Positions 21,055-59,156 of a stretch of 64,000 nt of DNA are shown here, piece after piece (position 1 is the first letter of the stretch; every line of letters begins with the position of its first letter). The notes beneath the pieces are model-generated. The model was given only the letters and a program-made list of their open reading frames with translations. It ran no database searches and was not told the origin of the DNA. Where the stretch lies: positions 1 through 64,000 of the forward strand of contig JAAYJT010000029.1 of the NCBI GenBank assembly GCA_012522795.1. Direction: 5' to 3'. A program made the position numbers and the translations under genes. The stretch is from Bacteroidales bacterium. GTDB lineage: Bacteria > Bacteroidota > Bacteroidia > Bacteroidales > JAAYJT01.

Positions 21055-22125
21055 ATGGAATATAAAATCATTACAACTATTGAGGATTTCACTGCGTTAA
21101 AAACTGACTGGCAACGCATGGAAAATCAATCACATGATGTTACTATATTTTCAACATTTGATTATTGCTATACGTGGTGGGAAGTATATCAGCATAAGCC
21201 TGAACTGAAACTTTGGATTATAATAGTACTTCATAATAATCAAATTGCAGGGATTGCCCCATTCATAATAGAAAGACGTAATTACAGATTAGGTTTGAAA
21301 ATAGATGTTCTCCGTTTTATTGCCGACGGTGATTATCATGACATCCTGATAAACATAGATTTAAACATTAACCCCGATTCAATTTTCAAGGATATTTTTT
21401 CTATCATCGAAGAAAATGGCTCATCCTGGGATTACTTGCATCTATCTCATATTAATTACAAATCACCCTTTTCCAATTTCCTTTTCAAATCGAAATACAA
21501 TAAGCATTTCACTTATCTCATTGAAAGTCCTTATATAAACCTTAGTTTATATGACTCATTTGATTCATTCAGTAAAATAAATGCGCCGTCAAAGGCTAAA
21601 CAATATGTTAGCAGATTAAGGAATAAAATCAACTATGAATTAGAGCTGAATAGCACTGATATTGAGTTATTTAGCCAAATTCATAAAAAAGAGAGAGATT
21701 TTTTACAAAATAAAGGAAATTTATATCGTCATTCACTATATGAGGATAAGAACAAAGTTGCGTTTATAAATGAATTGGCATCGCTAAATAAAATCACTTC
21801 TTTCTCTTTAATCTCAAAAGAGGATAACAAACTTTTAATATACAACTGGGGTTTCATAAAAGACAATATTTACTATTCTGTTAATACTGCTTTTGATCCT
21901 TCATATTCTGAATTTTCTTTAGGAAGAGTGATGTATTATGAAATGCTGAAACTGGCTAAGGACAAAAATTTATTCAGTGTTATGGATACCGGTACAGGTC
22001 GTTATCCATGGAAATTTGAATGGACATCTGATTTTAACATACTATATCAGATCCAGATAAAAAAGCCACGTTCATTCATTCATAAGTCTATACTAAATAT
22101 AAAGGCTATTTTCTTCAACAAATGA
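21055..22125 (+). CDS. CelD/FemAB-like GNAT acyltransferase
   Basis: The 356-residue protein resembles the CelD/BcsL group of GNAT-fold acyltransferases found in exopolysaccharide loci. It opens YKIITTIEDFTALKTDWQRM, has the region DYCYTWWEVYQH and AGIAPFII typical of that group, and a late SLGRVMYYEMLKLAKDKNL...FDTGTG-like segment. The acyl group and acceptor are unknown; such proteins may add acetyl or aminoacyl groups to sugars. The start codon follows directly on the preceding stop, and the end overlaps the next gene by 4 bp (ATGA), indicating translational coupling. Confidence 0.7.
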   Translation: MEYKIITTIEDFTALKTDWQRMENQSHDVTIFSTFDYCYTWWEVYQHKPELKLWIIIVLHNNQIAGIAPFIIERRNYRLGLKIDVLRFIADGDYHDILINIDLNINPDSIFKDIFSIIEENGSSWDYLHLSHINYKSPFSNFLFKSKYNKHFTYLIESPYINLSLYDSFDSFSKINAPSKAKQYVSRLRNKINYELELNSTDIELFSQIHKKERDFLQNKGNLYRHSLYEDKNKVAFINELASLNKITSFSLISKEDNKLLIYNWGFIKDNIYYSVNTAFDPSYSEFSLGRVMYYEMLKLAKDKNLFSVMDTGTGRYPWKFEWTSDFNILYQIQIKKPRSFIHKSILNIKAIFFNK

Positions 22126-34739: not shown

Positions 34740-35378
34740 ATGGACTTATATATAATAGGTGCAGGGAATGTAGGCGGTTTTCTGGCTTACCATGCAAACC
34801 AGTTTGGCAAATATATTCTTAAAGGATTTATTGATGACGATGAAAGTAAACATGGAAAGTATATTTACGACTTACCTGTCATAGGCAAGGTGGATATTCT
34901 GTTAAACATTGACAAACCATTTGCTGTTGCTGTTGCAATAGGAAATCCGATCAATAAAAAAAATATAGTAGAGCTGCTTAAGCAAAACAAGCAGGTGGTT
35001 TTTCCTAGTTTCATTCATCCTTCTGTATGGATCGGACAAAAAGTGATAATTAAAAAAGGCTGTATAATTTATCCGGGTGTAACTATAAATTATGAAACCG
35101 AGATTGATGATTTCGTAACTATCAACATGAATGCATCAGTAGGACATAACTGTAGATTAAACGATTTTTCAACACTTTCGCCGGGAGTCAATTGTGGAGG
35201 TTTTACAGTTATCGGAGAAGAAAGCTTTCTTGGAATAGGTTCTTCTACGATCCAGTCAATAAAAATTGGTAATAAGTCAATTGTCGGGGCTGGTGCGATA
35301 GTGATACGGAATATTCCGGATAATGTGGTTGTAGCCGGAGTTCCAGCAAAAATCATCAAATCAGGCTTAAATGATTAA
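34740..35378 (+). CDS. PglD-like sugar O/N-acetyltransferase
   Basis: The 212-residue protein has an N-terminal Rossmann-like nucleotide-sugar domain (IGAGNVGGFLAYHA, residues 4-17) and a C-terminal left-handed beta-helix of hexapeptide repeats (about 90-205) with the catalytic histidine in ASVGHNCRLNDFS. This is the architecture of PglD/NeuD/PerB. It acetylates a UDP-4-amino sugar or similar in the cytoplasm. It overlaps the next gene by 8 bp. Confidence 0.85.
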   Translation: MDLYIIGAGNVGGFLAYHANQFGKYILKGFIDDDESKHGKYIYDLPVIGKVDILLNIDKPFAVAVAIGNPINKKNIVELLKQNKQVVFPSFIHPSVWIGQKVIIKKGCIIYPGVTINYETEIDDFVTINMNASVGHNCRLNDFSTLSPGVNCGGFTVIGEESFLGIGSSTIQSIKIGNKSIVGAGAIVIRNIPDNVVVAGVPAKIIKSGLND

Positions 35379-36012
35379 AAAAAGGAGCAGGCGTTGGTTC
35401 ATTGCGGGTTTGTTACTCGCAATTTTCATTTTAATACTCTTTTTATTTCGCCATGCGGGAAACTATCTGGTCAAAACCGACCATTTGCAAAGTTCTGACG
35501 CCATAGTCATTTTAATGGGAAGCACTGTGGATAGGGTACTTGAAGCTAATGATGTATATAAAGCCGGTATGGCTGAAAAAATTTTAATTATAAACAACAT
35601 ACAGCTTGGAAGAGAAGAACTTGAAGCTCAAGGCATTTTTGTTCCCACTCAGGCACAACTGGCTATAAAAGCATTATCAAAAATGCATATTCCTGACAGC
35701 CTGATGTTTATTCTTCCGGGAAGCGCAGTCAGAACACGCGACGAAGCTGATACGCTTGCTAAAGCTATTGCACGGAACGAATTTGACATAAAATCTGTGA
35801 TACTTGTATCTTCTCCGGCACATATGCGCCGAAGTTCAATGATTTTTAAAAATTCTTTCAAAAAACACAATCTGGATGTTAAAGTAATAAGCGCACCAAG
35901 CAAATATTCTGATTTTCACCCCGAACAATGGTGGAAATACAGAGAAAATGCTAAATATGTATTCCTTGAGTACATAAAGATCATATTCTATCTGCTTTTT
36001 GAACAATGGTGA
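35371..36012 (+). CDS. YdcF/ElyC/SanA family (DUF218) membrane protein
   Basis: Residues 7-29 are one transmembrane helix, followed by a DUF218 domain (about 44-205). Family motifs are seen as SDAIVILMGS, KILIINN, VRTRDEADTLAKAI and VSSPAHMRRSSMIFK. Members act at the periplasmic face and are linked with envelope polysaccharide metabolism (for example ElyC and enterobacterial common antigen). Its place between a PglD-like gene and a second phosphoglycosyltransferase suggests a role in lipid-carrier or glycan handling. The biochemical activity is unknown. Confidence 0.8.
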   Translation: MIKKRSRRWFIAGLLLAIFILILFLFRHAGNYLVKTDHLQSSDAIVILMGSTVDRVLEANDVYKAGMAEKILIINNIQLGREELEAQGIFVPTQAQLAIKALSKMHIPDSLMFILPGSAVRTRDEADTLAKAIARNEFDIKSVILVSSPAHMRRSSMIFKNSFKKHNLDVKVISAPSKYSDFHPEQWWKYRENAKYVFLEYIKIIFYLLFEQW

Positions 36013-36027
36013 AATACACTATCAGGC

Positions 36028-36621
36028 ATGATCATAAAACGAATCTTTGATATAATCTTTTCTTTTGCAGGTTTAATTCTGCTTTTGCCGGTTTTTATAT
36101 TGGTTGCCCTAATAATAAAAACAACTACGCCGGGACCGGTATTTTTTCGTCAGATCCGTATTGGTTATAATGCACAGCCATTTACCATATATAAATTTCG
36201 TTCAATGCGTGTGAACACTTCAAATGTTTCAATAACACTTAGCAATGATGAACGCATTACGCCATTTGGCAGATTTTTAAGGCAAACAAAACTGGATGAA
36301 CTGCCTCAGTTATTTAATATTATAAAGGGAGATATGAGTGTTGTTGGTCCCCGTCCTGATGTTCCGGGATACTCTGATAAACTAAGTGGCGAAGATCAGT
36401 TAATATGGACGGTAAAACCAGGGCTTACAGGGCTCGACTCCCTCACCTACCCCGATGAACAAATCATCCTCGATAAACAGGAAGATCCTCAGCAATATTA
36501 CGATGAAGTATTGTGGCCTGCAAAAGTTGCGATAAATGTTGAATATGTTAAAAATCATACAATGATGCTTGATTTTAAGATAATCTTCCGAACCATTTTC
36601 AGAAAATGGGAAAATCCATGA
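36028..36621 (+). CDS. Second phosphoglycosyltransferase (sugar transferase)
   Basis: Another single-domain monotopic PGT (197 aa): reentrant helix at ~8-30, FRQIRIGYNAQPFTIYKFRS, the DE catalytic pair in TKLDELPQLFNIIKGDMSVVGPRPD and PGLTGLDSLTYPDE. The last motif differs from the [11 protein letters not shown] of the first PGT, so the two probably use different sugars or act on different glycans. Two initiating enzymes in one locus are uncommon. It starts 15 bp after the YdcF-like gene and ends 75 bp before the exosortase gene. Confidence 0.88.
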   Translation: MIIKRIFDIIFSFAGLILLLPVFILVALIIKTTTPGPVFFRQIRIGYNAQPFTIYKFRSMRVNTSNVSITLSNDERITPFGRFLRQTKLDELPQLFNIIKGDMSVVGPRPDVPGYSDKLSGEDQLIWTVKPGLTGLDSLTYPDEQIILDKQEDPQQYYDEVLWPAKVAINVEYVKNHTMMLDFKIIFRTIFRKWENP

Positions 36622-36695: not shown

Positions 36696-37283
36696 ATGCT
36701 GAAAAAATTCTGGCTGCAATTTAAGACGTTCTATTCAGGCAGATATGGATTTGCAATTGACATTCTGTTGTTTTCAGTAATAACCATTTTTTTTCACAAT
36801 ATATGGTGGAGCTTTGAATCTTTCATCAAATCATTTTCAGCAGTAAACCAAACTGCCGACTGGCTTGCAAAACAGGTGTTCTTGTCCAGTCTGTGGATCA
36901 ATCGGAATTTACTGGGACTGCAAATCTCCATTGAGGAGGTTAATATCATGTGGTTCAGTAATGGAGGCTTTGTTCAGGTGGTAGAAAGCTGCTCAGGACT
37001 TAAACAATTTTATCAGATCCTTGTATTGTTCATTTTATTCCCGGGACCATGGAAGCATAAACTATGGTTTATTCCTGTGAGTATTATAATTATGCATGGC
37101 GTCAATATTTTGCGCATAGTTATCCTATCGGTTTTAGTAGTTTGGAAACCTCAATATTGGGATTTGGTTCATGTATGGGTTTTGCGTCCCTTCTTTTATG
37201 TTGTAATATTTATGCTTTGGGTTTGGTGGGTTGAAAAATTCAAAAACCGAAAAACAAGTAAAGCCGCAGCTACAACATCTTAG
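36696..37283 (+). CDS. Exosortase/archaeosortase family protein
   Basis: This 195-residue membrane protein has about five predicted helices. It contains the Cys-Arg-His set of the exosortase family: Cys99 in VVESCSGLKQF, Arg140 in GVNILRIVIL and His159 in WDLVHVWVLRP. Exosortases are proposed to cleave C-terminal sorting signals (PEP-CTERM and relatives) and join the protein to a glycolipid. It is short compared with XrtA but similar to Bacteroidota Xrt variants. Its stop codon overlaps that of the convergent deacetylase gene. No protein with a recognisable exosortase sorting tail is found in the window, so the target is unknown. Confidence 0.82.
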   Translation: MLKKFWLQFKTFYSGRYGFAIDILLFSVITIFFHNIWWSFESFIKSFSAVNQTADWLAKQVFLSSLWINRNLLGLQISIEEVNIMWFSNGGFVQVVESCSGLKQFYQILVLFILFPGPWKHKLWFIPVSIIIMHGVNILRIVILSVLVVWKPQYWDLVHVWVLRPFFYVVIFMLWVWWVEKFKNRKTSKAAATTS

Positions 37284-38134
37284 CCTAATTTAATTATAGG
37301 AAGTTCTTCGGATTTTTCAAGATAATATCCGGCTGCTTCTCCAACAGGAATAAATCTCTGACTTGCCATAAGATTTGACAACTTAGGAATTGTAGTACTA
37401 TTGCCAAGCCTTCCCATAATATTCCGATAAAATGGCAGCTTTGAAGTCATGGGTACGGCAGTATCAAAATCGCGGGGATGGAAATACGCCATATTATACT
37501 CATGCTTTTTGTAAAGATGATCTATTAATCTGAAAGGTAGCACACGGAAATACCCGCTTCCAGTGTATACCCATTTCAGTCCCATGCTAGACACCTGGTT
37601 CAGAGGAAGTTCCAGGATTTTTTTTGCCTTGTACTCAAAATGAAATGGTGTCTGAGGTATTTTCTCCGAACCTATTTTTCGTAATGATTTTGATGAGCTA
37701 CTTATTGTAATACCATGCTTTAACAATATTGGGATACACCAGCCATTATTCTGGTTAAATGAGAATCGCGGCGCACGGTATTGCACAATTTCTTTTCCGG
37801 TAATTTTTTGCAATAATTCCAGACCCTTTGCCAGATCTTTTTCAAACTCAAGTGGACCCTGCCTCTCTGGTAAATGGTGATAATAAGAATGATAACCAAT
37901 TTCATGACCCTCATCGGCAATACGTTTGATTACTTCCGGATATTGCTCAACTATCCATCCCAAAACATAAAATGTACCGATCGTATTGTTCGTGGCAAGG
38001 AACCTCAGGATAATATCAAGATTATTCTCAATCCGGCTTTCCATCTGAGACCATTGTGAAATATCAATCTGAGAAGATTCATAACTCAAAAACCAACTCT
38101 CAATATCAAAACTTAAAATATTAACCCTCGTCAT
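37280..38134 (-). CDS. Polysaccharide deacetylase with DUF3473-like C-terminus
   Basis: The 284-residue CE4 protein has the metal motifs LSFDIESWF (residues 7-15) and GHEIGYHSYYHH (HxxxH, about 76-87), YRAPRFSF (about 118-125) and FHPRDFD near the end. The C-terminal half (from ~160) resembles DUF3473, which is found in the deacetylases of XrtA/PEP-CTERM exopolysaccharide loci. Its position tail-to-tail with an exosortase gene and directly downstream of a FemAB-like gene (14-bp gap) supports that link. No signal peptide is evident. Confidence 0.85.
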   Translation of the reverse strand: MTRVNILSFDIESWFLSYESSQIDISQWSQMESRIENNLDIILRFLATNNTIGTFYVLGWIVEQYPEVIKRIADEGHEIGYHSYYHHLPERQGPLEFEKDLAKGLELLQKITGKEIVQYRAPRFSFNQNNGWCIPILLKHGITISSSSKSLRKIGSEKIPQTPFHFEYKAKKILELPLNQVSSMGLKWVYTGSGYFRVLPFRLIDHLYKKHEYNMAYFHPRDFDTAVPMTSKLPFYRNIMGRLGNSTTIPKLSNLMASQRFIPVGEAAGYYLEKSEELPIIKLG

Positions 38135-38148
38135 CCAAATATTCTATC

Positions 38149-39528
38149 TTAATAAACCCATTTAGCTATATAATTCCCAAATTTATTTCCTAAAGGATAA
38201 GGTAAATATTTCCATATTTTTCGTATCCAATCATATTTTCTAAGACTAACCCTTGGCTGGGGATGAACCATCCAGCGTAAAGCAACATCATAAGTTTTCC
38301 ATTGTTGTTTAAACTTATGTACTCCGCTTTCGCGGGTACTTTGTCCAAAACTGTATGTATGGCAACCAAGTTCAATGGCATGAGTAATCATTTCACTATG
38401 CAGCAGATATGATGGATATAAACGCTGCCAGGGCTTAAGTGTTGCGAACCACCCATTTTCATAAAAACCCTGATAGGCATTGTTAAAAGCACCGCCTATA
38501 ACCTCTCCCTTATACTTCACAAGAAATATTCCTGCCCAGGCATTATCGTATTCTGCAAGCATTATTTCAAAGAAACGCCGTGGCAATGCTCCTGAGCCAA
38601 TGCTCCTGATATGACGGGAATATACTTTATAAAAATCATCCAGCAAGTCCACTCCTCCTCTTTCCACTGTTAATCCGTTACGCCCGGCTTTATTGATTTT
38701 ATGACGAAGATTTGTTGAAAAGATCTGTAATTGTTCTGTCGGATTTGATCTTAATTTCAGCCAGGAAACCACCTTTATTGCCTTCTCATCCTGATTCAAT
38801 AACGGATAGCGGTACTCAAAACCATTAAATCTTTTTTCAAGATGTAGTTTGTGTAAACAGGAAACAATTTTCCGGTTCGGATCTTCATCTCCATTACGCA
38901 CAAACAAAGCACCATAGCTGAAATGTGGCAGGGAAACTAGGTTATTTCCTGTGCAAACCAGCGCCAGTTGCAAATCGTTATCTGTTTTTATTAATATTGA
39001 TTTCCAGCCAAAAGCTTTTGAAATAATTTCAGGTATACGCGGATGATGTGTTATAAGTGCAGGAACGCCGGGTATTCCCGTGAAGGGCTTGAAATTATCA
39101 GATAAACCACTGTTCTCCAATGAGTTAAAGTTAAGATTACAATTACATTTCAGACCGGAATGTTTAAGACTTATCAGAATGCCTGCAAAGCCACCGGCGC
39201 CGGCACAAATAACCATCCAGTAATGAACTTTGGCAGAAACAATAAAAGAGTTTATCAGAAACTCCATCAAATACGCATGAGTAAGCAATATTATCAAAGT
39301 CCACAATAAAAGTTTACGCTTTTGCAGCAGACAATTACCGGTAATTAGGACAATAAAAAATGCAACAAAAAAATAAACCACAATGACTAAAAAACCGGAA
39401 AGCCATAAACGATCCTCAAAAAACCCAGCCGAGCTCATGAAAAAGCGAATAAAGCCAGCAATAACCAGCATAGCTGTGATCCAGACAAAATCCTTGATTA
39501 TAGTTCGCTGAGTATTCAAGAAATCCAA
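38149..39528 (-). CDS. Membrane-anchored FemAB/GNAT-like protein
   Basis: The 459-residue protein has four predicted transmembrane helices in residues ~10-120 and a large cytoplasmic GNAT/FemAB-type domain (about 150-445). Motifs include HKINKAGRNGLTVERGGVD, IGSGALPRRFFEIML, GGAFNNAYQGFYENGWFATLKP and TYSFGQSTRESGVHKFKQQW, the last two being characteristic of the FemAB-like proteins of XrtA/PEP-CTERM loci. It may transfer an aminoacyl or acyl group to the glycan or its lipid carrier. The membrane-bound N-terminal region is an addition to the usual soluble form. It is probably co-transcribed with the deacetylase downstream. Confidence 0.8.
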   Translation of the reverse strand: MDFLNTQRTIIKDFVWITAMLVIAGFIRFFMSSAGFFEDRLWLSGFLVIVVYFFVAFFIVLITGNCLLQKRKLLLWTLIILLTHAYLMEFLINSFIVSAKVHYWMVICAGAGGFAGILISLKHSGLKCNCNLNFNSLENSGLSDNFKPFTGIPGVPALITHHPRIPEIISKAFGWKSILIKTDNDLQLALVCTGNNLVSLPHFSYGALFVRNGDEDPNRKIVSCLHKLHLEKRFNGFEYRYPLLNQDEKAIKVVSWLKLRSNPTEQLQIFSTNLRHKINKAGRNGLTVERGGVDLLDDFYKVYSRHIRSIGSGALPRRFFEIMLAEYDNAWAGIFLVKYKGEVIGGAFNNAYQGFYENGWFATLKPWQRLYPSYLLHSEMITHAIELGCHTYSFGQSTRESGVHKFKQQWKTYDVALRWMVHPQPRVSLRKYDWIRKIWKYLPYPLGNKFGNYIAKWVY

Positions 39529-42154: not shown

Positions 42155-44092
42155 ATGATCCGATATATCACCATTCTCATAATAATATTAACAAGCATTG
42201 TTATACAGGCTCAGGAGATTTTGACAGGTCTTGAGTCGAATCCGCAAATCCTGAAAGCTATTAAAGAAGGTCGAAAACCAGATTTAAAAAACTCTCAGGT
42301 TCTCACACTACCATTTTTTGATGACTTTTCAGGTTCTGATATTTTCCCTGATAGCAAAAACTGGGCTAACAATGATGTATTCATTAACAACGACTACCCT
42401 GTTTTCCCAGTAACAGCCGGTGTTGCTACTTTTGATGCTCTTGATGAAAATGGAAAACTACATTCTGATGCAGGCAAAAACAGTTTTATTGCTGATTATC
42501 TGATCTCTCATACCATACGCCTCGATTCAGTTCTCTCTCCTGAACCAAAAGCACTCACTCCAAAGGATTCAATTTATTTAAGTTTTTACTATCAACCAGA
42601 AGGACTGGGGTTTGCACCTTCAGAAGGTGATTCATTAGTACTTGAGTTTTTTTACAACCATCCTGTTGATTCATTAAAAACCTGGGTTAAAGTATGGTCT
42701 GCAGCAGGCATGACACTTAATGAGTTTTTGGCTTTACACAAGACGTATTTTAAAAGAGTGATGATACCCATTACTGACGAAAAATTCCTTAATGAGGGGT
42801 TCAGGTTCAGGTTTTACAATATTGCCAGTATCCGTTATCCTAATGCTCCAAGCCATCAGAGCAACCGCGACCAGTGGAATATTGATTATGTTTATTTGAA
42901 TTATAATCGTACTATTAATGATATCTATTATAATGATCTTGCTTTTGTAAATAAACATGGAAGCTTTTTAAAAAACTTTAATTCAATGCCATACAAACAA
43001 TACAAACAGAATTTCGTTAATGAAATGGCTGAATATCTTAATGTTATGGTGAGCAACTTAAATAACACTGAAGCATCTGGTTCTTATAAATATATAGTCA
43101 GCCGTCCGAATGGTACCGAGCTGAAAAGATACGAGAGTGGCACATATTTAATTGCTCCTTTTTCACAATCGGGGTATGTAACTGAAGCAGCAATAGCAAA
43201 ACCACCTGTTGAATTTGCTTTTCCAATTGATCTGCAGGAAAACTCTGCTTCCTTTCTTATAACCCATATTTTAACAGGGGATACATTTATACCTGGAACA
43301 AATGACACGTTGAAATACGCTCAGTCATTTTCTGATTATTATGCCTACGACGATGGCACAGCCGAAGCCGGTTACGGACTAACAAATGCCGGTGGCAAAA
43401 TGGCATATCGCTTCCGGTTGAATACCCCTGACACTTTAACAGCAGTTGATATATTTTTCAACCGGGCACTTAACAACGAAAATCAAAAATTTTTCCATAT
43501 CCAGTTGTGGAATGATTATAACGGTAAACCCAAAAATCTGATTCATGAAGAAAAGGATTTCAGGGTTGAATATGGAAATGACGGGCTGAACGATTTTCAC
43601 CGTTATTTCCTTGATGAACCTCAGGTAATTTCAACTTCCAGATTCGGAGAATTAAGATATTATATTGGACTTGAACAAACTACCAGCTCTTTGCTGAATG
43701 TAGGTTTCGACCGCAATAACAATAAAAAGCAAAATACTTTCTATTATTTCTATTCTGATACAGCCAATATGTGGAGAAACACAATGTATGACGGTGCTTT
43801 AATGATAAGACCAGTATTTGGCAATGCAAAAAGCATACAGCCGAAAGATGAAAAAAGCGTACGCCTGAATGTTTTTCCAAATCCGGTTAATGGTAATGTG
43901 ATCCGCCTGCAGACTGATGAGGATATGATGAACGACAGCCGTTTTCAGATTTTCAATGTGTCAGGAATTATTATTCAGGAGGGAAAAACCATCGATAATA
44001 TCAATATATCACAATTGCCGTCAGGAGTTTATGTATTACGGCTAACCGGCAAAAACAAAACTGAATATACCCGGTTTATAGTGCACCGGTAA
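42155..44092 (+). CDS. Type IX-secreted protein with C-terminal sorting domain
   Basis: The 645-residue protein begins with a signal peptide (RYITILIIILTSIVIQAQ, residues 2-19) and ends with a type A T9SS sorting domain (about 570-645) with VFPNPVNGNVI, FQIFNVSGIIIQEGK and LPSGVYVLRLTGKN. The central part has jelly-roll-like beta segments (FDDFSG.., YDDGTAEAGYG near 400) and no catalytic motif I recognise. It should cross the outer membrane and be displayed or released. Similar proteins are found between the PASTA gene and rluD in other Bacteroidota. Confidence 0.88.
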   Translation: MIRYITILIIILTSIVIQAQEILTGLESNPQILKAIKEGRKPDLKNSQVLTLPFFDDFSGSDIFPDSKNWANNDVFINNDYPVFPVTAGVATFDALDENGKLHSDAGKNSFIADYLISHTIRLDSVLSPEPKALTPKDSIYLSFYYQPEGLGFAPSEGDSLVLEFFYNHPVDSLKTWVKVWSAAGMTLNEFLALHKTYFKRVMIPITDEKFLNEGFRFRFYNIASIRYPNAPSHQSNRDQWNIDYVYLNYNRTINDIYYNDLAFVNKHGSFLKNFNSMPYKQYKQNFVNEMAEYLNVMVSNLNNTEASGSYKYIVSRPNGTELKRYESGTYLIAPFSQSGYVTEAAIAKPPVEFAFPIDLQENSASFLITHILTGDTFIPGTNDTLKYAQSFSDYYAYDDGTAEAGYGLTNAGGKMAYRFRLNTPDTLTAVDIFFNRALNNENQKFFHIQLWNDYNGKPKNLIHEEKDFRVEYGNDGLNDFHRYFLDEPQVISTSRFGELRYYIGLEQTTSSLLNVGFDRNNNKKQNTFYYFYSDTANMWRNTMYDGALMIRPVFGNAKSIQPKDEKSVRLNVFPNPVNGNVIRLQTDEDMMNDSRFQIFNVSGIIIQEGKTIDNINISQLPSGVYVLRLTGKNKTEYTRFIVHR

Positions 44093-56822: not shown

Positions 56823-59156
56823 ATGATACGATTTACCAAAGCATTGAAAAAATTTACCGCAATCTTACAAAAAAGATTTCATTTTATCATTTTAATAACT
56901 TATCTGATTTCAGGATTACCTTCAAGAAGTCAGACATATTATGAATTTGGCTTTGTACTGAAACACGACATTTTGGTTTTTGACACGAGCAATAACTTGT
57001 TGGATCTTGCATGGATTGGCGGGTTAAACACCTGTCAGTTCCACAAATTCGATCTGAATTCTGATCAAATTGAAGATCTTATAATTTTCGACAGACATGG
57101 AAACAGGTTATTGACTTTCGTTAACGATGGTTCTGACAGCGAATATGCATACAGTTTTGCGCCTGAATATATTGATAAATTTCCTAAAACAGAGCAATGG
57201 ATACAGTTTGTTGATTATGATAACGATGGAAAAAAAGACATTTTCACCTATGTAACCGGTGGTATGAAAGTTTATAAAAACATATCGGATACAAGCATCA
57301 GGTTCAAAAAAATAACTGATCCTTACCTTTACACACAACTAAGCAATAATCAGTTCATTAATCTTTTTGTTACAAGTGTTGATTATCCGGCAATTGTAGA
57401 TATTGACAACGACAGCGATGTTGACATACTTACTTTCTGGGGTCTGGGAACTTTTCTTGAGAAACACAGCAATCAGTCGGTAGAGTTGTATGGGCATAGC
57501 GATTCACTAATATTCAAAAAGACAGAATATTGCTGGGGCTATTTTGCCGAAAGTGAAGAGTCAAATATAATAACTCTTGACACCTGCATAGATGTAAAAA
57601 ACATGAGCTTTTTACCTGAAGTACTGAAAAACAGGGAAGAGAGACATACCGGCTCTACTTTACTTATGCTTGATATGACAGGAAATGAGCTTTATGATCT
57701 CATCCTGGGAGATATTGACTTCCCGGGACTATTTCTGCTAAAAAATGGAGGCACAGCTGATTCGGCTTATATTGTTGATTGCGATACACTTTTCCCTTCA
57801 AATACACGTCCGGTAAATCTTTTTTCTTTCCCGCTGCCTTGTTTTATTGATATTGACAACGATGGGATTAACGACTTGGTAGTTTCACCGTTTGAACCGG
57901 GTATGAAACGGGCAAAACATCATAATTGCGTTTGGTATTATAAAAATACCGGTACTAACAGTCATCCGGTTTTTGAATTTGAAAGAGAAGATCTGTTTCA
58001 GCACAGAATGATTGATGTTGGTGCCAATGCTATGCCTGTTCTTTATGATATTAATGGAGACGGTCTTCCTGATCTTTTTGTTGGCAACTTTGGATATAAC
58101 GACACCTGCTATTATGATCAGTTTTATATTATGAGATGTAAGTACGGTTCAAAATTGGCTTATTTCAAAAATACAGGAACTCCGGGCAATCCCTCTTTTA
58201 AACTGATGACTGACGATTTTGCGGATCTTTCTGCTTATAATCTGCGGGGAATCTATCCTGCTTTTGGTGATATTGATAATGATGGCAAAATTGAAATGTT
58301 AATTGGAAATGAAGATGGGAACCTTTTACTTTTTAAGAATACAGCAGCACATAATGAACCTTTTGAGTTCGAACTCATTGATGACAACTATCAGCAAATA
58401 AAGGTAAATGCTTTTAGTGTACCACAACTTATTGACCTGAATAACAATGGATTACCTGACCTTGTATTAGGTCAGCAGAATGGTAGGCTAAGTTACTATG
58501 AAAATCAGGGAGATGCCTATAATCCTTTATTTGTGAAGATAACTGATACCCTTGGCGGGATAAATGTTACTGATGAGCAGATGTCGTATACAGGGCATAG
58601 CATACCTTGTTTTTTTCGGGATTCAAAACAGGAACTGAAACTATTTGTTGGTTCGGAATCAGGAAGGGTTTTTTATTTCAAGGATATTGAGAATAATCTG
58701 ACGGGTAATTTCACTCTTGTTGACGAAAGGCTCACTTCGCTTAATGAGGGAATAAGAACAGCCCCGGCAGTTGCATATTTAACTGACAGTATTTACCCTG
58801 ATATGATCATTGGCAATTATGGAGGTGGCTTAACCTACCACAAAGGCGTAACGCCTGAAGCTCATGGCATTTCTGCCCCACATAAAAACAATCACTATGG
58901 ATTTGATTTTTATCCGAACCCATCATCAGATTATTTAATATTGTTGTTCGACTATGAAATAAACATACATAAAGCACAGGTTCAAATCTTTGATATTTTA
59001 GGCAGAGCTGTTTATAATTCAAATAATTTAACAAAACCTTACAATCATATTTCTGTGTCCAACTGGAATAATGGAACATATATAATTTCAGTAAAATTTG
59101 AAGACAGCTATGGCAATATATGGTGGAGCCGAAAAAAAGCAATGGTTCTGCGTTGA
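56823..59156 (+). CDS. Secreted FG-GAP/VCBS-repeat protein with type IX sorting domain
   Basis: The 777-residue protein has an N-terminal hydrophobic signal (residues ~18-37; FHFIILITYLISGLPSRSQ) preceded by a basic stretch. It has repeated calcium-binding beta-propeller motifs such as DYDNDGKKDIF, DIDNDGINDLV, DINGDGLPDLFVG, DIDNDGKIEMLIG and DLNNNGLPDLVLG (between about 135 and 560). The C-terminal T9SS type A domain starts near residue 695 (FDFYPNPSSDYLIL, VQIFDILGRAVY, WNNGTYIISVKF). It is likely a surface or released binding protein; the ligand is unknown. It is transcribed alone, divergently from secDF. Confidence 0.88.
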   Translation: MIRFTKALKKFTAILQKRFHFIILITYLISGLPSRSQTYYEFGFVLKHDILVFDTSNNLLDLAWIGGLNTCQFHKFDLNSDQIEDLIIFDRHGNRLLTFVNDGSDSEYAYSFAPEYIDKFPKTEQWIQFVDYDNDGKKDIFTYVTGGMKVYKNISDTSIRFKKITDPYLYTQLSNNQFINLFVTSVDYPAIVDIDNDSDVDILTFWGLGTFLEKHSNQSVELYGHSDSLIFKKTEYCWGYFAESEESNIITLDTCIDVKNMSFLPEVLKNREERHTGSTLLMLDMTGNELYDLILGDIDFPGLFLLKNGGTADSAYIVDCDTLFPSNTRPVNLFSFPLPCFIDIDNDGINDLVVSPFEPGMKRAKHHNCVWYYKNTGTNSHPVFEFEREDLFQHRMIDVGANAMPVLYDINGDGLPDLFVGNFGYNDTCYYDQFYIMRCKYGSKLAYFKNTGTPGNPSFKLMTDDFADLSAYNLRGIYPAFGDIDNDGKIEMLIGNEDGNLLLFKNTAAHNEPFEFELIDDNYQQIKVNAFSVPQLIDLNNNGLPDLVLGQQNGRLSYYENQGDAYNPLFVKITDTLGGINVTDEQMSYTGHSIPCFFRDSKQELKLFVGSESGRVFYFKDIENNLTGNFTLVDERLTSLNEGIRTAPAVAYLTDSIYPDMIIGNYGGGLTYHKGVTPEAHGISAPHKNNHYGFDFYPNPSSDYLILLFDYEINIHKAQVQIFDILGRAVYNSNNLTKPYNHISVSNWNNGTYIISVKFEDSYGNIWWSRKKAMVLR

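Follow-up and report, generated by a model that had tools for sequence, protein, structure and literature searches.

At the end of a polysaccharide biosynthesis locus in a Bacteroidales genome, an exosortase gene is accompanied by genes for a DUF3473-type polysaccharide deacetylase and a FemAB-like protein. The stretch of DNA analysed (64,000 nucleotides; the window) raises the question of what such an exosortase sorts in an organism that also has the type IX secretion system (T9SS), and what its two companions contribute. We know of no established substrate or role for the exosortases of Bacteroidota, and of no substrate for XrtF in particular. The sole genetic study found, on xrtF of Flavobacterium johnsoniae, describes T9SS-like phenotypes without explaining them (PMC10936215).

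The exosortase and its locus

The exosortase is a protein of 195 residues encoded at 36696-37283 on the (+) strand. It passed the superfamily cut-off of TIGR04178 (56.8 bits; cut-off 23) and that of Pfam PF09721 (38.9 bits; cut-off 25.7). The nearest named subfamily is XrtX (NF046081), at 91 bits far below the cut-off of 170, and the scores against the XrtF model TIGR04128 (53 bits; cut-off 90) and the EpsH subfamily TIGR02602 (31.6 bits; cut-off 105.6) were also insufficient. By the curated cut-offs, this enzyme is not XrtX, XrtY, XrtF or XrtA; its subfamily, referred to here as the Bacteroidales EPS-cassette subfamily, has no model with a passing score. No other exosortase was found in the genome (2.88 Mb, 97% complete). 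In the exosortase tree, it falls in a clade in which nearly all members carry the EPS cassette described below, separate from the clade of the PID-CTERM-adjacent exosortases (support 100/99). No report of the EPS-cassette clade was found in the literature searched. A Bacteroidales-type exosortase also occurs on a contig labelled Candidatus Nealsonbacteria (L246), probably owing to a binning error.

The sequence-only reading placed the catalytic residues at Cys99, Arg140 and His159. All three are at these positions and are invariant in 51/51 aligned homologues; the loss of a catalytic residue in orthologues, which that reading had named as evidence against itself, was never seen. The AlphaFold model (pLDDT 94) depicts a helical membrane protein in which a short beta segment precedes Cys99. 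Among the solved structures, no exosortase was found by sequence, and a fold search with this confident model gave no significant match; therefore, no structural family could be assigned. From its sequence, the enzyme is considered to be a member of the C-R-H superfamily, predicted to cleave a tripartite C-terminal tail and transfer the product.

As had been proposed, the trio closes a polysaccharide locus. Pfam and NCBIfam scans delimit this locus at 14430-36621 on the (+) strand. It encodes FnlA, epimerases including a UDP-GlcNAc 2-epimerase, a Wzx-type flippase, a Wzy-like ligase/polymerase and glycosyltransferases, together with two sugar-phosphate transferases and NeuD. A polyprenyl sugar-phosphate transferase (36028-36621, +; TIGR03025/TIGR03023/TIGR03013) lies directly upstream of the exosortase with a gap of 74 bp, and a DUF218 membrane protein (35371-36012, +; PF02698, 52.7 bits) belongs to the same gene run. 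A second GNAT/FemAB-like acetyltransferase (PF13480) is encoded inside the locus at 21055-22125. The genome encodes SprA, and T9SS type A tails are present in the window at 42155-44092 and 56823-59156; this means that the organism is a T9SS organism, in agreement with the earlier reading.

To follow how often the arrangement recurs, we examined 40 relatives among 393 genomes of this order, as well as 80 named contigs from Bacteroidales, Lentimicrobium and others. Because of contig ends, the neighbour counts at the 80 loci are minimum values: a FemAB gene is no more than 5 kb away from the exosortase in at least 50, the deacetylase is near it in at least 35, a Wzi-type outer-membrane protein in at least 29, an MraY-type glycosyltransferase in at least 17 and VanZ in at least 16. 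The cassette of exosortase, FemAB, deacetylase, MraY, Wzi and VanZ is conserved, whereas gene order and strand vary. With dozens of Bacteroidales contigs showing the arrangement, it is more than a chance association: the trio is a real unit, a recurrent Bacteroidales EPS cassette. One such cassette contains a tandem pair of exosortase genes (L229:1583-2831). In addition, 10 of the 80 loci have, directly beside the exosortase, a membrane protein of about 430-500 aa with a long basic N-terminus (cluster C4), for which no Pfam or NCBIfam match was found. The C4 genes are divergent from the exosortase gene and occur in other clades (L062, L064, L218, L220, L231, L238 and others).

The deacetylase and FemAB-like companions

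Both companion genes are on the (-) strand, opposite to the exosortase, as was noted previously. They are spaced by 14 bp and are convergent with the exosortase gene, whose stop codon overlaps that of the deacetylase gene. The deacetylase (37280-38134) is above the cut-offs of PF11959 and PF01522 (Polysacc_deac_1). Its best match is the XrtA-system deacetylase model TIGR03006, at 177 bits under the equivalog cut-off of 276. Asp10, His86, Arg120, Pro122 and His219 are kept in 7/7 aligned homologues from the neighbourhoods.

The FemAB/GNAT-like protein (38149-39528; 459 aa, TTG start) is above the cut-offs of PF13480 and PF02388. It, too, has its best match in an XrtA-system model, TIGR03019, at 100 bits under the equivalog cut-off of 260. 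Its nearest solved relatives are FemX structures. Hydropathy analysis predicts four membrane segments in the N-terminal region (about residues 9-119), which probably anchor the protein in the inner membrane. FemAB relatives of like length (458-474 aa) are seen only in some genomes, G022 and G231; the others have about 310-375 aa.

At a presence threshold of E 1e-10, FemAB was found in 20/393 genomes, a distribution that depends on the threshold, so that a distant VimA could be missed. Nineteen of the 20 are exosortase-positive (p = 9e-8), whereas SprA of the T9SS is present in 371/393. The companions therefore track the exosortase and not the T9SS as such. This bears out the view that the deacetylase and FemAB are genuine partners of the exosortase. 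Since most exosortase genomes are without FemAB of this type, FemAB is an accessory of the exosortase system.

PID-CTERM microproteins and their T9SS cargo

The sequence-only reading had found no protein with an exosortase sorting tail in the window, and a scan of the window for tails of the form P[ILVM]x[GSN][GN] likewise gave none. A tail scan of the loci of the 40 relatives gave one true case, a 99-aa ORF in L062 matching the PID-CTERM model NF046080. This model finds one protein in the genome under study, an 81-aa microprotein encoded at about 114697-114942 of contig C62, a different contig from that of the exosortase. Its sequence is MKKTIRQLILVISIISAAAFVNTLYAQPKPGDPGVGGGPGGGSYPIGGSAPIGSGLVILLTMGLGYGAKKVYDARKDLSKD. 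It consists of a signal peptide, a Gly/Pro-rich segment of about 25 residues, an API-GSG motif, a transmembrane helix and a basic end. The score against NF046080, 22.1-22.6 bits, is slightly below the curated cut-off of 26. With a refined order-level model it was 60.5 bits (E 5e-16); it should be mentioned that this model was built from 39 tails of the same order, the C62 microprotein among them. No second copy was found in the genome with the refined model. A same-genus genome (G001; L163) has a tail near-identical to that of the C62 microprotein; this related copy scores 26.3 with its neighbours. The search of the genome with PID-CTERM models, in line with the earlier suggestion to look for a C-terminal motif followed by a helix and a basic end, gave this microprotein as the one candidate, and it is most likely the substrate of the exosortase in this genome. 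The idea that a surface protein is the substrate holds in part: a candidate for a sorted protein exists, but it is a microprotein of a class of about 60-100 aa and not a large surface protein.

Among the 393 genomes, PID-CTERM was found in 106 (refined model) and the exosortase in 152. Ninety-five of the 106 PID-CTERM genomes are exosortase-positive (Fisher p = 7e-38, which overstates independence because the genomes are related; roughly 50 families, of about 120, contain positives). PID-CTERM thus occurs in 95/152 exosortase genomes versus 11/241 others. Exosortase presence was judged by a single-sequence search, which divergent members may escape, and many of the genomes are incomplete MAGs. 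In two further PID-CTERM genomes an exosortase was detected via TIGR04178; in 9/106, several of them incomplete, none was detected even with this model. Of the 50 genomes with the closest exosortases, 45 carry PID-CTERM. The other situation named as adverse, a family occurring regularly without candidate sorted proteins, corresponds to 5/50 genomes in the close subfamily and to 57/152 exosortase genomes overall in which no PID-CTERM was recognised; G084, for example, has the cassette and no recognised PID-CTERM. The exosortase is the gene directly downstream of the PID-CTERM gene in 14/75 cases. Nearly every genome of the order has SprA, so that the joint distribution of the T9SS and PID-CTERM carries no information.

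The genomic surroundings of the PID-CTERM genes, at sites drawn from the best-scoring matches, revealed a second association. Genes upstream of PID-CTERM match TIGR04183 in 57/80 cases, whereas among the downstream genes (75 controls) this model is outside the 25 commonest and can therefore have at most four matches. A partner-tail model, built from PID-paired cargos, most of them matching TIGR04183, but without the pairs of the genome under study and of the same-genus L163, matched 60/81 upstream genes and one downstream gene, which is the cargo gene of the pair that follows. Sixty-seven of the 81 upstream genes are on the same strand within 250 bp, and 60 of these 67 match the model; for five of the seven that do not, the PID-CTERM copy is exosortase-adjacent. 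The median gap between cargo and PID-CTERM genes is 36 bp, and the PID-CTERM precursors have 61-98 aa. The PNP motif was present in 1/60 paired cargo tails and in 5/5 ordinary T9SS cargos, the latter examined in the genome under study only. T9SS type A cargo is thereby divided in two: ordinary cargo with PNP, and a PNP-less class paired with microproteins. In G207 (L090), the genes of the cargo, the PID-CTERM protein and the exosortase directly adjoin one another.

The pair in the genome under study fits this general pattern. The C62 microprotein gene lies 52 bp behind the gene of a 685-aa cargo (L165:17587-19644) on the same strand. The C-terminal domain of this cargo is without the PNP motif; it falls short of E 0.01 with TIGR04183 and gives E = 3.8e-21 with the partner-tail model. 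A cargo-tail search of 17 genomes gave 116 bits for this cargo and, among the matches listed, down to 62 bits, no other from the same genome. The search also gave further cargos outside the model, mostly with a PID-like microprotein 26-81 bp downstream, including the motif variants PAGSG, AVGKG and PIGDG, which are missed by the PID model. Three cargos in this set (in G084, in G147 and one in G172) are without a downstream microprotein. The exosortase had been supposed to act in parallel with the T9SS. Its presence in a T9SS organism agrees with this, but the two seem not to be merely parallel, because the microprotein gene is directly behind the gene of a special cargo class.

The combination of exosortase and PID-CTERM is already known as a kind from NCBIfam. 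No paper naming PID-CTERM was found in the literature searched, and neither was a report of its pairing with T9SS genes (most subscription journals were outside the search); the pairing appears to be new. With a candidate substrate gene that follows T9SS cargo of a class that can be recognised, named test pairs are available in many genomes, and it can be tested in them whether two sorting systems thought to be separate cooperate.

Comparison with known systems and proposed mechanism

The XrtA/PEP-CTERM (EpsH) system of Proteobacteria (Haft 2006, PMC1569441) resembles the present one in several points: its EPS locus encodes a membrane transpeptidase of the C-R-H type together with a polysaccharide deacetylase and (in later models) a FemAB-like protein, and the targets, whose genes lie elsewhere in the genome, carry a tripartite C-terminal tail. 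In contrast, the window enzyme, at about 195 aa, is short compared with the EpsH type, and its companions are below the XrtA-system cut-offs (TIGR03006, TIGR03019). The proposed targets here are microproteins with a PI[D/G][G/S]G motif instead of PEP, and their genes follow T9SS cargo genes, whereas those of the XrtA system are mostly in single-gene operons. The XrtX/XrtY systems with PID-CTERM (NF046081, NF046083, NF046080) are closer, in that XrtX is the nearest subfamily and NF046080 found the candidate substrate. However, the window protein and nine relatives are all below the XrtX cut-off; PID-CTERM-adjacent exosortase relatives score 77-131 bits with NF046081.

XrtF of F. johnsoniae (Fjoh_1448; PMC10936215) is likewise a Bacteroidota exosortase in a T9SS organism. 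It is adjoined by an XrtF-associated gene and not by a FemAB/deacetylase pair. Deletion of xrtF is reported to cause defects in sand colonisation, biofilm and zorb formation resembling those of T9SS mutants; these are compatible with a coupling of exosortase and T9SS but do not demonstrate it. In the Wbp/Vim pathway of the Porphyromonas gingivalis T9SS (PMC7468200), a deacetylase and a FemAB-like protein, VimE and VimA, are proposed to modify the linking sugar, which is joined to the protein C-terminus by a sortase; its authors drew the parallel to PEP-CTERM loci. That sortase is PorU, whereas the pair described here goes with the exosortase both in its distribution and in its position.

Based on these results, we favour, with fair confidence, a model in which the exosortase processes microproteins that are each dedicated to one T9SS cargo, and the deacetylase and FemAB-like protein probably prepare the acceptor. 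The signal peptide of the microprotein points to export, via Sec, and the tail helix would keep the peptide in the inner membrane. From here on we infer the steps. Cys99 would cut near the PI[D/G][G/S]G motif, and the exosortase would pass the short peptide to an acceptor, which may be the glycan of this locus, as was suggested earlier. By analogy with VimE and VimA, the deacetylase might de-N-acetylate a lipid-linked amino sugar of this acceptor, and the membrane-anchored FemAB-like protein might add an amino acid to it. The recurrence of the one-cargo-each pairing across Bacteroidales suggests that the processed peptide helps to display or anchor its paired cargo. A bolder form of the model, put forward tentatively as less likely than not, is that exosortase and T9SS make up one bipartite display system in Bacteroidales: one microprotein for each PNP-less cargo would be attached to the sugar prepared by the deacetylase and FemAB, and its peptide would be the receptor or anchor of the cargo.

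Three other explanations should be considered. The companion pair could be the local VimE/VimA, which make the linking sugar for PorU and lie beside the exosortase only through the shared polysaccharide. The published pathway (PMC7468200) includes VimE as a deacetylase and a VimA that matches TIGR03019, and the present T9SS-positive genome has no other TIGR03019 match. However, the near-universal SprA and the 20 FemAB genomes, with their 19 exosortases, weaken this explanation (compared by distribution, at E 1e-10), and the scans of the window gave sugar genes of the FnlA type, with no Wbp set; we regard it as unlikely. The PID-CTERM microproteins, in turn, could be membrane-tethered escorts or chaperones of T9SS cargo, with the exosortase target elsewhere. 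This would suit the tight, operon-like one-to-one pairing, the distance of the C62 pair from the exosortase and the size of the precursors, which are so short that little is left after cleavage. Against it, the genome-wide co-occurrence with the exosortase is strong, and the cases of direct adjacency and the tripartite tail fit a sorting signal, which makes an escort function improbable.

It might also be that this is an ordinary EPS-locus exosortase whose true substrate bears a different tail that was not recognised, and that PID-CTERM co-occurs with it through shared lifestyle or ancestry. The 57 exosortase genomes without recognised PID-CTERM, the separate clade of PID-CTERM-adjacent exosortases and the motif variants that escape the model would be in line with this. 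On the other hand, PID-CTERM is present in nine-tenths of the close-subfamily genomes, and the genome under study has exactly one exosortase and one PID-CTERM protein; an unrecognised tail thus seems to be a rather improbable answer.

As for the cargo itself, the PNP-less T9SS type A-like C-terminal domains form a recognisable subtype, located after a conserved Y-x-F...RF-x-L-x-F segment. Just upstream of the C62 pair, at L165:10363-17557, lies a cluster of genes for secreted proteins, several of which have cohesin-like domains or T9SS tails.
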